Positions 6,903 through 56,371 of a DNA stretch of 56,371 nucleotides are shown here, piece after piece. The notes below the pieces were generated by a model that ran no database searches, was not told the DNA's origin, and was given only the letters and a program-made list of their open reading frames with translations. The DNA is from Bacteroidia bacterium. Its GTDB lineage: Bacteria; Bacteroidota; Bacteroidia; Cytophagales; Cyclobacteriaceae. The stretch lies in contig JAUHYU010000022.1 of the NCBI GenBank assembly GCA_030426345.1, positions 1-56,371 on the forward strand, in the 5' to 3' direction. A program made the position numbers and the translations under genes. Within the stretch, counting starts at the first letter, position 1. Every line of letters begins with the position of its first letter.

Positions 6903-8192
6903 TCACCTTTGATGATGATTTTGGACAAAATAGTTTGAGATTGCCCTTCCCAATGTGATTGCTTCAGATCGGTAGCCATCCATTGTACTTAGGGGAGTGT
7001 TCATATTCACCTCCAAAGTCAATGCAACATTGTGATCGGTTGTTTCCATGGTGACCCACTTACGCGCAGTATTCGGCTTCTGATCCCAAGGTCGTTCACT
7101 ATGGTAAATCTGAGTCATAGACTGGCTAAGCCTAGCGATATCATCTAATGGTTTTGATTTCAAAACCTCAAAGAATTTTTTTCTGTTTTTTTGTTGCTTA
7201 TCGTAGGGCAATGAATTTGTCTCTGCGATGATAAAATAAGGATGGCTATTATTACCTGGCCCGTGAAAATCTATGAACATATCGAGCATGTTTTGCTCCT
7301 TCCACTCCATCAATAAAGATTTTGATGCCTTGGTCTCCGGCCAATGGTCTGGTAATATATCCCAGCCGCGGTTATGGTCATGTGGTTGCTGATTTTTGCC
7401 AGTTCTTCCTTCTACCACACCGTCTACATCAACTATTGGAACAACTACTAATGTGGAACAATCTAGTAGGTTTTTAGCCATAGGATCCTCTGAAATCAAC
7501 CAACGTAAAAGCTCATGTAGTACCCAACTGCTCCCCGATTCAAAAGCATGAGTTCTCGCTTGCAACCAAATACCGTGCTTCTTCTTACTTTCTTGTTTTG
7601 GTTTATCAAATCGGATTGCTGTAACGGGACGACCTTTTTTTGTTTTACAAAATTCAAAAATTTCAGCATCAGGATTCTTGCTTACATCAGAAGTCAACAA
7701 CAAATCCAGATGTGCTGGTGTATATGGTAAGTCATAAGCAAACCAAACTTTATCACCTCGTACCACATGTTTATAAACAAAGAATTCTCTAGAGTCAATT
7801 ATTGCAGATTTACCCGTATCAGTCAATCCCCATACTTTCTGATCATAGCTAAAAAAAACTTGCGGGCTAATCCCTGCACTAGCAGGGACTCCCCTATCTA
7901 ATTCTAACACAATCTCTTCCCCCGATTTCACACCTTCGAGCGCAAAATACCACCAAACCTGACTCCAGCCGCCACCACCCTCATTGTGCGCTTTAAATCT
8001 TATTCTATGTGGATTTTCACTAACAACCCTAACATCCCCTCCACCACTTACAAAATCGGTAGAGATAGAAATTGATTGATTCATGGAATTTAGAGCCTTT
8101 CCAGTAAGTAAATTGGGAAGCAATATTCCAGAGGCCGTTATCATCCCGGTATTTTTAATAAAACCTCTGCGACTAAGACTGATTCGATTCAT
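6903..8192 (-). CDS. Tat-exported M14-family zinc carboxypeptidase
   Basis: A 429-residue zinc peptidase of family M14 (cytosolic-carboxypeptidase-like branch) carrying a Tat signal (SRRGFIKNTGM, twin Arg at residues 8-9), so it is expected in the periplasm. The zinc ligands are visible as HxxE at residues 215-218 (ARTHAFESGSSW) and a third His at 310 (FIDFHGPGNN). The substrate-region segment NRGWDILPDHWPET is typical of the family, and the C-terminal LEVNMNTP segment probably carries the general-base Glu. An N-terminal beta-rich domain (about residues 40-180) resembles that of this branch. It would trim C-terminal residues or cleave amide bonds of peptides or murein; the substrate is not known. 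Confidence 0.85.
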   Translation of the reverse strand: MNRISLSRRGFIKNTGMITASGILLPNLLTGKALNSMNQSISISTDFVSGGGDVRVVSENPHRIRFKAHNEGGGGWSQVWWYFALEGVKSGEEIVLELDRGVPASAGISPQVFFSYDQKVWGLTDTGKSAIIDSREFFVYKHVVRGDKVWFAYDLPYTPAHLDLLLTSDVSKNPDAEIFEFCKTKKGRPVTAIRFDKPKQESKKKHGIWLQARTHAFESGSSWVLHELLRWLISEDPMAKNLLDCSTLVVVPIVDVDGVVEGRTGKNQQPHDHNRGWDILPDHWPETKASKSLLMEWKEQNMLDMFIDFHGPGNNSHPYFIIAETNSLPYDKQQKNRKKFFEVLKSKPLDDIARLSQSMTQIYHSERPWDQKPNTARKWVTMETTDHNVALTLEVNMNTPLSTMDGYRSEAITLGRAISNYFVQNHHQR

Positions 8193-54251: not shown

Positions 54252-56371
54252 CTATATAGCTCTTTCTTGATATAAATGTTCTTGAAATCCGATAAAGGTT
54301 TCTCTAATCGATTTTATATCTCCTAATTCTCGTTTTGCATCTGCAAGTGCCTTATATTTTAATAGCAATAAAGGGGATAATTTGGCATCGTCTAATTCAT
54401 TAACCCCTTCTTTTACATATTGTTCCAATACAAAATTCAAGAACTCTTGCTGCTTTGGGTTGTAGGCATTCATCTGAATTCTGGCTCTTCCTGCTCGTTC
54501 TATTCTTGGAACCATATCTCTGTGATAAGCGACATAATTTAATACATCAAAAAGGTCGCTGTCTTCTCCGTGGATCAAGTTTCTCAAATCTTCCAATTGT
54601 GAATTTGTATAGCCTTTTTCACTCAATTCAGCTAGCAGTTTTTTGCGAGTGCTCGGTAAGCTCCAAAGTTTTCGCAATTCTTCCTCGTTTTTAAAAAATG
54701 CCGGCAAATCCCCATACAATTGTTCTAAGAATTCTTGATGACCTATGGGCTTGCCTGTGGGACTCCAAAATGAAGTTTTGACCATAGAGTCTATCTCTCT
54801 CATTTTATTGTCCGAGAGTTTTACTTTTATCATTTGTCGCGGCGGCGTTTCGCAAACACATGGAATATTACCACATTCAGAACAAGGCACAGGTGCTGGT
54901 TGATCGCAAATACAAGGGGTTTCTCCGCAAACATTGCAAACCCTTGGTGTTCCTTTTCCAGTTGTCGGTTCAGGGTCTAAAGGTTCACCGTCCCATTCAG
55001 GATCTTGAAAATGACTATGTGCATTCACAAAATCATAGATTGTGAAATAATCTTTCCCATCAAAAAGTCGTGTTCCCCTCCCAACAATCTGCTTAAATTC
55101 CACCATTGAGTTCACGGGGCGCATCAAAACGATATTTCTGATTTCCGGTGCATCTACTCCCGTGCTTAACTTTTGCGAAGTGGTTAGGATGGTTGGAATG
55201 CTTTTTTCGTTGTCTTGAAAGTATTTTAATTGTTCCTCTCCTCTTGCGCCATCATCGGCAGTGACCCTATGGCAGTAGTTGGTGTTTTTACTGGTTGCAT
55301 ATTGATTTATCAAATCTCTAACGGCTGTTGCATGAATTTGTGTGGCACAGAAAACCAATGTTTTTTGATTTTGGTTTATCGAATCCATAAAGAGTTTAAC
55401 TCTGTATTCTTCCCTTGCCTTAATCTCAATGATTTTATTGAAATCCACCTCAGTATATGATCTCCTTTCCTCAATGTCACCTTCTACTTCATCATCAGCG
55501 GTATATACATATTCGTCAATAGTCGTGTCTATTTCTTTCACCTTAAAAGGTGTCAAAAATCCATCATTAATGCCATCTTTTAGTTTATAGCTATAGACAG
55601 GGTCGCCAAAATAATTGTAGGTGTCGGCATTTACATCCCGCTTCGGAGTGGCAGTTAGCCCTAATTGAACAGCTGGTGAGAAGTAGTCCATGATAGCGCG
55701 CCAAGAACTTTCGTCATTGGCACCACCTCTGTGACATTCGTCTATGATGATAAAATCGAAAAAGTCGGGTGGATATTCACCAAAGTTTAGTTCGGCAGGC
55801 TCACTAACCTTTTCGGCAGGCTCACTAACCTTTTCGGCAGGCTCACTAACCTTTGACTCATTATACTTTTCTATTGGTTCTTTTAGCTTGCCAACAATAG
55901 TATTGAAATTAACATTCTTGCTTTTTGATAATTCCTTTAGCAATTCAATATCATCGTTAATAAGGGCTTTTTTCTTATCGCGACTCCATCTTTTTATTTG
56001 ATGTTCTCTTTCAAAAGCATCATCAATTCTTTCAAATATTTCATAATAAACTAATTGAATTGGCAAGTTATTTTTTGTGTGTCTAGATCCAAGTCCATTA
56101 TTATGTTCCTCAAGTCTCCTTTTTAAATTTTTAGTACTACCTGTATAAAAACTTCCATCCGAACATTTAAGAATATACATATAACAATATGCCTTAACTA
56201 TGTCTGGGTTTTTATTGATGTTAAAATACCTTTCAATAGGCTCTGCAGCGATATCATATTCAAATTCCTCAATGTATTTAGATGTGTCTGCACCTACCGA
56301 AGTCGTCATAAAACTCTGAAAAATGGTAAAGAAGATGCTGCCATTTTTAGGGACACCTCCTATCTTCTTAA
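54252..56371 (-). CDS. hsdR: type I restriction HsdR subunit, 5'-truncated, with an in-frame GIY-YIG insertion
   Basis: The frame runs off the right edge (20 more codons precede the first ATG at 56309, reading ...GSIFFTIFQSF), so the N-terminal nuclease and motif I are outside. HsdR is the ATP-dependent translocase/nuclease of type I restriction. The DECH motif is at residue about 190 counted from that ATG (DFFDFIIIDECHRGG), followed by VQLGLTATPKR and MRPVNSMVEFKQIVGRGTRLFDG. The end has the EcoEI-type C-terminal domain with two Cys-rich knots (CNVCGETPCIC, CSECGNIPCVC). Just before LNFGEYPPDFF, a full GIY-YIG domain (residues about 43-125) and three KVSEPAE units (153-173) are inserted without breaking the frame. 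Partner HsdM/HsdS genes are not in the window. Confidence 0.92.
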   Translation of the reverse strand, partial: KKIGGVPKNGSIFFTIFQSFMTTSVGADTSKYIEEFEYDIAAEPIERYFNINKNPDIVKAYCYMYILKCSDGSFYTGSTKNLKRRLEEHNNGLGSRHTKNNLPIQLVYYEIFERIDDAFEREHQIKRWSRDKKKALINDDIELLKELSKSKNVNFNTIVGKLKEPIEKYNESKVSEPAEKVSEPAEKVSEPAELNFGEYPPDFFDFIIIDECHRGGANDESSWRAIMDYFSPAVQLGLTATPKRDVNADTYNYFGDPVYSYKLKDGINDGFLTPFKVKEIDTTIDEYVYTADDEVEGDIEERRSYTEVDFNKIIEIKAREEYRVKLFMDSINQNQKTLVFCATQIHATAVRDLINQYATSKNTNYCHRVTADDGARGEEQLKYFQDNEKSIPTILTTSQKLSTGVDAPEIRNIVLMRPVNSMVEFKQIVGRGTRLFDGKDYFTIYDFVNAHSHFQDPEWDGEPLDPEPTTGKGTPRVCNVCGETPCICDQPAPVPCSECGNIPCVCETPPRQMIKVKLSDNKMREIDSMVKTSFWSPTGKPIGHQEFLEQLYGDLPAFFKNEEELRKLWSLPSTRKKLLAELSEKGYTNSQLEDLRNLIHGEDSDLFDVLNYVAYHRDMVPRIERAGRARIQMNAYNPKQQEFLNFVLEQYVKEGVNELDDAKLSPLLLLKYKALADAKRELGDIKSIRETFIGFQEHLYQERAI
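55788..56189 (-). mobile_element. in-frame GIY-YIG nuclease cassette inside hsdR
   Basis: About 134 codons between native HsdR segments. The GIY-YIG domain is complete: MYILKCSDGSFYTGSTKNL, the Arg of RRLEEHN, and the catalytic Glu in FEREHQIKRW. Stand-alone proteins of 80-100 residues with the same sequence are common in Bacteroidota, often with short repeats at their end; that is general knowledge. The 3' part consists of a linker and three 21-base repeats. No splice residues of an intein are seen. The left boundary is approximate, as some of the preceding 40 residues could also be part of the insert. Confidence 0.6.
55791..55853 (-). repeat. three perfect tandem 21-bp repeats in hsdR
   Basis: Three identical, adjacent copies of a 21-base unit (TTCGGCAGGCTCACTAACCT plus T on the plus strand), in frame and encoding KVSEPAE three times. 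There are no spacers, so it is not a CRISPR array. They sit between the GIY-YIG domain and the resumed HsdR sequence. Confidence 0.95.

Follow-up and report, generated by a model that had tools for sequence, protein, structure and literature searches.

The window analysed here, a stretch of 56,371 nucleotides from a Bacteroidia bacterium (contig JAUHYU010000022.1 of assembly GCA_030426345.1), encodes at its right-hand edge part of the type I restriction protein HsdR, which carries a complete GIY-YIG nuclease domain within its reading frame. The insert is probably an unspliced, in-frame, homing-like and horizontally mobile cassette specialised for one loop of EcoAI/FtnUII-family HsdR proteins (FQSFM to FGEYPxDFFDFIIIDECH), and it is predicted to be translated as an extra HsdR domain with neither an intron nor an intein around it. 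The argument is built on sequence comparisons, in which one nuclease lineage appears at one site in many HsdR backbones, with empty sister alleles, with repeats and with signs of purifying selection. Homing predicts such a pattern, with a single lineage at one site in many host alleles, sister alleles that lack it, and a putative active site that has stayed intact.

A GIY-YIG domain in frame within HsdR

On the minus strand, a single open frame of 705 amino acids (aa) runs from 56369, at the contig edge, to a stop at 54252, and comprises in order the end of an HsdR segment, a complete GIY-YIG domain, an array of three 21-bp units and the rest of an EcoAI-type HsdR. The open frame, the Pfam matches and the array thus agree with the first-pass annotation, which had read a continuous frame with a complete GIY-YIG domain and three repeat units inside HsdR, before the DECH motif. 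Pfam places GIY-YIG (PF01541) at residues 62-133 (E 2.4e-17, above the cut-off), followed by ResIII, Helicase_C and EcoEI_R_C; the PF01541 match together with the conserved Tyr, Tyr, Arg and Glu places the domain among GIY-YIG proteins of the UPF0213/Slx1-like type. Five columns (Tyr, Tyr, Arg, His and Glu) are invariant in the domain alignments, and we take these to be the catalytic ones. The NCBIfam model of EcoAI-type HsdR, NF046051, aligns from residue 194 with 507.8 bits, below its cut-off of 550 because the N-terminal half of the protein lies outside the contig (position 56371 is the end of assembly contig C173). The features of the frame are as follows.

56304..56371, minus strand: HsdR segment before the insert (...NGSIFFTIFQSFMT); 68/68 bases the same as in the empty C164 allele
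56289..56301, minus strand: probable degraded left terminal repeat TTCGGTAGGTGCA; 10/13 matches to TTCGGCAGGCTCA, by eye
56190..56288, minus strand: left linker, an IAAEP-like stretch (also in empty loops) and then the pre-domain segment FNINKNPDIVKA
55914..56189, minus strand: GIY-YIG domain, UPF0213/Slx1-like type; PF01541 core at 55971-56186; conserved Tyr, Tyr, Arg, His, Glu
55855..55913, minus strand: right linker, from domain to array
55791..55854, minus strand: three perfect 21-bp units (KVSEPAE x3); unit on the plus strand TTCGGCAGGCTCACTAACCTT
54252..55787, minus strand: remaining HsdR, from NFGEYPPDFFDFIIIDECH to the stop, with helicase motifs and EcoEI_R_C

The degraded left repeat is in register with its exact counterpart in another carrier, L013 (by eye), and given its position the cassette is probably longer than 55788-56189. 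We read the KVSEPAE array as an expanded right terminal repeat in this allele's own version; the motif does not mark the cassette in general. In 72 empty HsdR loops the distance from FFTIFQSF to DECH is 35-77 aa including both motifs, or about 17-59 between them, a wider range than the 10-30 residues at first taken as usual.

An empty allele in the same assembly

Another contig of the window's assembly, C164, holds the N-terminal half of an hsdR gene with an empty version of the same loop. Window and C164 are identical over 68/68 bp before the loop and match at 413/442 bp after it, the first 89 bp being free of mismatches (by reading of the alignment), and in the HsdR tree this empty allele is the window's nearest relative (96% at the amino-acid level over 158 columns). 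A search of the genome (5.1 Mb, 182 contigs) gave C164 as the one N-terminal half of this hsdR and C173 as the one C-terminal half that matches it, with EcoEI_R_C elsewhere only on C48. We infer that the population is mixed and that C164 and C173 represent alternative alleles at a single locus, the other possibility being two separate loci.

C164 also has genes resembling hsdM and hsdS (by eye). Immediately upstream of the empty hsdR allele lies a Y1 transposase gene (IS200-like, PF01797; L004:9009-9464), and in the HsdS-like protein of this contig (L004:6552-7862) the stretch STNSGQDGEG between the two halves resembles the dispersed repeat described below, with one mismatch at 7139. Two further GIY-YIG matches in the genome lie in open frames of 600 and 467 aa, the longer of which is presumably UvrC, judging by its length.

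Ten carriers share one loop

A scan of genome contigs returned 129 related stretches, from which 80 loci were kept, and six of the 80 (L013-L018, labelled as metagenome-assembled genomes of Bacteroidota) have the same domain in the same loop. Their site is partly given by the search, because the query included the loop flanks; searches with the domain alone added L113, L143 and L144, from the window's own phylum, inserted at the same loop. The carriers are thus ten in all, the window and nine other assemblies, with one loop among them. The idea first put forward, of a nuclease cassette that sits in frame in an HsdR loop able to tolerate it, is borne out by these assemblies and by the absence of the insert from close HsdR alleles. 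The 18-base core of the window's array has no second copy in the window's genome within two mismatches.

These assemblies also bear on a possible artefact, an assembly that used shared sequence to link reads from a stand-alone GIY-YIG gene with hsdR. The window does lie at a contig end, and C173 and C164 do share identical stretches on either side of the insert; however, the same architecture recurs at the same loop in nine other assemblies, which is not what a one-off joining event would leave, and the embedded domains separate from the sampled stand-alone domains. As the source of the architecture, a chimera is largely refuted by the nine assemblies, and we regard it as very improbable.

HsdR is complete in six of the ten carriers (L013, L016, L017, L018, L113 as L180 and L144 as L179), the frames of the window and L015 are open up to the contig end, and the HsdR of L014 and L143 is interrupted. 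Loss of the frame in an independent sequence, which had been named as evidence against the idea, is therefore seen in L014 and L143 but not in the six complete or the two open frames. In L143 (L181:1023-4054) the first of the 24-bp units in the left array differs by 1 bp (by eye), which puts the N-terminal part out of frame with the domain and the C-terminal part; an assembly error, decay or a switch could lie behind the break.

All five of the complete carriers tested (every one except L113) exceed the NF046051 cut-off, and the three carrier proteins given to PADLOC match models of type I and related restriction systems. Genes resembling hsdM and hsdS lie beside the carrier hsdR in L179 and L180 (by eye), the hsdM-like gene of L180 ending at the edge of the stretch. 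The predicted structure of carrier L016 (mean predicted local distance difference test score, pLDDT, 78.4; predicted template modelling score, pTM, 0.62) has an HsdR fragment, 3h1t, as its top Foldseek match. Ten-residue blocks of its GIY-YIG domain (about 301-390) have pLDDT values of 51-73 and the left linker falls below 50, and because of these low local values the placement of the domain on HsdR is not interpreted.

Counted by open-frame length among the matches listed, in overlapping genome samples, carriers amount to at least 2/395 phylum genomes (the window's own genome included), 3/391, 1/345 (its own) and 2/123; a GIY-YIG match of any kind at E 1e-10 or better occurs in 218/395 phylum genomes. 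An order-level search with the window hsdR DNA matched 20/291 genomes (its own included), and none of the 14 other HsdR loops fetched contains the domain. With the loop region as tblastn query, 76 plasmid and 29 phage records gave matches, in none of which a single place covered 80% of the query, and the 31 pattern stretches from viral contigs gave no confirmed case with profile A2. No comparable insert outside HsdR was seen by eye among the longer GIY-YIG frames in L160 and L175-L178. The frame at L160:613-1785 (391 aa) continues from GIY-YIG into a nucleotidyltransferase-like protein (by eye), with one stop counted in the matched stretch.

The domain and HsdR have conflicting histories

The ten embedded domains form one clade among 57 GIY-YIG rows (branch support 99/98; four stand-alone row pairs are the same loci fetched twice), set apart from the sampled stand-alone domains, and a smaller tree of 31 rows with eight carriers also recovers the embedded clade (100/98). 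In a 78-row tree of the HsdR body, built without the loop, each of the ten carriers stands in a place of its own, and together they imply 10 changes, at least 8 of them forced by well-supported branches. A tree with all ten in one clade is rejected (approximately unbiased test, p-AU 1.3e-109), and they are united in 0/200 bootstrap trees. L041, which is short, and the long-branched L033, L066 and L089 were left out of this tree; the L014 row is under half filled, and L143 is represented by its C-terminal part only. An 80-row tree that includes these four loci and has 8 carriers gives 8 changes. Three of the 80 scan loci (L020, L042 and L081) have no readable loop and are in neither HsdR tree.

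When the topologies of the ten carriers were tested for congruence, domain and HsdR trees were rejected both ways (p-AU 2.8e-13 and 1.5e-66), and therefore neither vertical descent nor repeated loss fits. Plain vertical descent is ruled out by the one-clade rejection and the conflict of topologies, and an ancestral insert followed by many vertical losses by the rejected congruence. The first-pass annotation had also considered descent within a single HsdR clade without repeats, which is at odds with the trees and with the repeat counts given below. Its suggestion of a cassette that moves horizontally into the HsdR loop is upheld by the single domain clade, the scattered carriers and their conflicting histories.

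The ratio of nonsynonymous to synonymous divergence (dN/dS) of the embedded domain is 0.09-0.28 in 19/45 pairs, those in which the proportion of synonymous differences (pS) is below 0.7, and this shows the signature of purifying selection on the domain. Synonymous differences are smaller in the domain than in the HsdR body in 42/45 pairs, which are not independent of one another.

Borders, terminal repeats and in-frame arrays

In most carriers the cassette extends from directly after FQSFM(S/T)G to directly before YFGEY (by eye), and the window and L013 retain an IAAEP-like stretch, resembling empty loops, between the left repeat and the domain. The left ends are GGTTCGACAAGCTCACCCACC or near it and the right ends resemble the reverse complement; in its dispersed form the repeat is TTCGACA[AG]GCTCA on the left and the reverse complement on the right, both read through in frame. 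Exact 13-bp inverted terminal repeats are found on both sides in L013, L015, L016, L017, L018 and L113, those of L143 and L144 are within one mismatch, L014 has an exact right repeat and a split left copy (by eye), and on its right side the window shows its own variant in three copies. Tandem arrays that keep the frame stand to the right of the domain in the window (21 bp x3) and in L113 (21 bp x6); to the left of it, L113 has an array of 45 bp x3, L143 one of 24-bp units and L144 one of 54 bp x6. Linkers and arrays vary from carrier to carrier.

Within one mismatch, a TTCGACARGCTCA-type repeat lies in the loop of 9/9 carriers scanned versus 0/72 empty genes, L143 having been omitted because its loop is out of frame. 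Elsewhere in the hsdR gene the repeat is present in 6/9 carriers versus 8/72 empty genes (Fisher p 6e-4), and three of the eight empty-gene copies look like native EWDGEPVE sequence. The window's genome contains 22 copies (three of them the window array) versus 6 for the reversed pattern, and so few copies are consistent with import of the cassette. A different repeat-like stretch (NYQLSTVNYQL and similar) is seen in the empty loops of L191-L194, L035, L051, L055 and L058, and the HsdR loop before DECH may collect in-frame repeats of several kinds.

Rfam gave no match at the gathering threshold in L001, L016, L017, L018 and L179. Inteins end at their right border in HN followed by Ser, Thr or Cys, and right borders such as ...EP/YFGEY lack this signature (by eye; no intein model run).

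The cleanest pair of occupied and empty alleles is L017 and its sister L078, in which the 180 bp compared on each side contain 1 mismatch (left) and 3 mismatches (right), against 2-10 per 60 further out, and in which 28 bp of the loop are replaced by the cassette (by eye). Such pairs bear on the idea that the insert is a passive passenger of single origin, spread by ordinary homologous recombination between hsdR genes with no part for the nuclease. The single embedded clade and the conserved flanking motifs are in keeping with this idea, and the HsdR tree mixes phyla, so that hsdR genes do travel. However, the carrier flanks match those of an empty sister in two pairs (0 mismatches in 68 and 89 bp for the window and C164; 1 and 3 in 180 bp for L017 and L078) and little donor flank therefore came along there, and the putative active-site columns are intact. 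On balance we consider a passive passenger rather improbable.

Stand-alone relatives and type I loci

Around 49 stand-alone relatives of the domain (one per genome), the fetched stretches contain 70 repeat copies against 0.99 expected from the genome-wide density. The copies cluster, and the number of loci with at least one copy, 16/49, is therefore the safer figure.

Some stand-alone relatives lie in type I loci. They precede hsdS-like genes in L147, L114, L019 and L021, and in L147 the relative sits between hsdM-like and hsdS-like genes with overlapping ends. Within the fetched flanks (up to 1.5 kb), hsdS-like matches accompany 4/49 relatives (L114, L115, L147 and L150), those of L115 and L150 being weak (22-28% identity). 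At L014:927-2495 a GIY-YIG domain is fused in frame to the N-terminus of HsdS (PF01541 and PF01420) through a repeat-like tail, LPEALEG, and a second GIY-YIG copy lies in the HsdR of the same locus. A tight operon with overlapping ends at L182:3099-8597 encodes an hsdM-like gene, a stand-alone GIY-YIG, an hsdS-like gene and an hsdR-like gene (797 aa); the stand-alone GIY-YIG relative of L182 matched no PADLOC model.

It is mainly this company that keeps alive a second explanation, in which GIY-YIG has been domesticated as a second nuclease that aids type I restriction (e.g., through additional nicks in the DNA being translocated) and is spread along with hsdR genes, or from one to another, by its benefit to the host. 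The L147 and L014 arrangements and the four flank matches fit such a role, as do the conserved Tyr, Tyr, Arg, His and Glu columns, the purifying selection on the domain and the complete HsdR in six of ten carriers. Against it, carriers are scattered over the HsdR tree, the domain stays readable in two carriers whose HsdR is interrupted, linkers and arrays differ among carriers, and repeats also surround stand-alone relatives with no hsdS match in their flanks. A domesticated nuclease therefore seems to us unlikely, if far from negligible.

A probable homing-like cassette

We thus favour the homing-like cassette, for which the nuclease history conflicts with that of the host gene and empty alleles with the same flanks exist in C164 and L078. 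In the mechanism that we propose, the nuclease, acting as part of HsdR or as a fragment, would nick or cut the loop of empty hsdR alleles, and repair would then copy the cassette in and replace the loop. Frame-compatible ends and a naturally variable loop would let HsdR tolerate the cassette, and in-frame tandem expansion of the end repeats would lengthen its linkers. An unspliced insert may be tolerated because the loop is so variable in length among the 72 empty genes and seems to take other repeats. Cleavage of empty sites, movement driven by the nuclease and an HsdR that still works are what we infer from these comparative data.

Several observations weigh against this reading. No known isolate and no complete genome is among the ten carriers, inspection by eye of the carrier borders compared showed no target-site duplication, the left repeat of the window is degraded, and for 33/49 stand-alone relatives the sequence fetched contains no repeat of this type. 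A function for the host is hinted at by the stand-alone genes in hsd operons and by the one HsdS fusion. The same trees could result if hsdR segments recombined, and low GC content (0.27-0.36) may account for part of the domain's lower synonymous divergence, dS being near saturation.

If the reading is right, the cassette would represent a further lifestyle for a selfish nuclease in a coding gene, one in which it remains part of the protein, lodged in a loop of a motor used for defence. It would also point to a natural route by which restriction enzymes gain new catalytic domains.

Comparison with known systems

Homing nucleases embedded in protein genes are known chiefly from inteins and introns, where splicing leaves the host protein intact. 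Like the homing endonuclease genes of inteins and group I introns, the cassette has a nuclease whose history conflicts with that of its host gene, and both occupied and empty alleles at one conserved site. Unlike them, it stays in the translated frame, with no intron found and no intein-like right border (by eye). Proteins of the UPF0213 group (PDB 1zg2 and 1ywl) belong by sequence to the same domain family as the cassette, but they are small separate proteins of 107 and 96 residues, whereas the cassette domain lies inside HsdR.

REPIN/RAYT systems combine pairs of short inverted repeats with an enzyme gene, as the cassette does, although the RAYT enzyme is a Y1 tyrosine transposase and that of the cassette a GIY-YIG nuclease. 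As a tentative extension, it is possible that small GIY-YIG nucleases of a broad family, together with inverted repeats of the TTCGACARGCTCA type, form a comparable mobile system, in which complete units would be repeat-nuclease-repeat, short inverted repeat pairs would be their dependents, and one branch would have become an unspliced homing cassette in HsdR with the restriction enzyme as its vehicle. The cassette itself offers a concrete, testable link between dispersed bacterial repeats and a small, little-studied nuclease family.

In the literature, the titles and abstract openings among the matches listed describe no GIY-YIG lineage recurring at one HsdR loop and no GIY-YIG with such repeats, and four 13-mers of the repeat were not found in the text searched. 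The available portions of PMC8432527, PMC7017083 and PMC10969869 hold nothing on GIY-YIG in HsdR. Contrary to what had been supposed, a GIY-YIG domain within HsdR is not wholly new to type I restriction, because one such insertion was reported in 2006: according to the available text of that article, HsdR MCA0838 of Methylococcus capsulatus has a GIY-YIG insertion at about residue 800, which its authors called unique and took to be of very recent date and possibly without functional relevance (Dunin-Horkawicz et al., 2006; PMC1564403). Compared by description only, and as far as that text goes, both are GIY-YIG domains inside HsdR; MCA0838 is one case at about residue 800, whereas the cassette is one lineage in one loop before DECH, in ten HsdR proteins and with terminal repeats. 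Rickettsia palindromic elements likewise lie in frame within protein genes; in the available part of their description (PMC10969869) no nuclease is mentioned, whereas the cassette carries a nuclease between its repeats and has one preferred loop.
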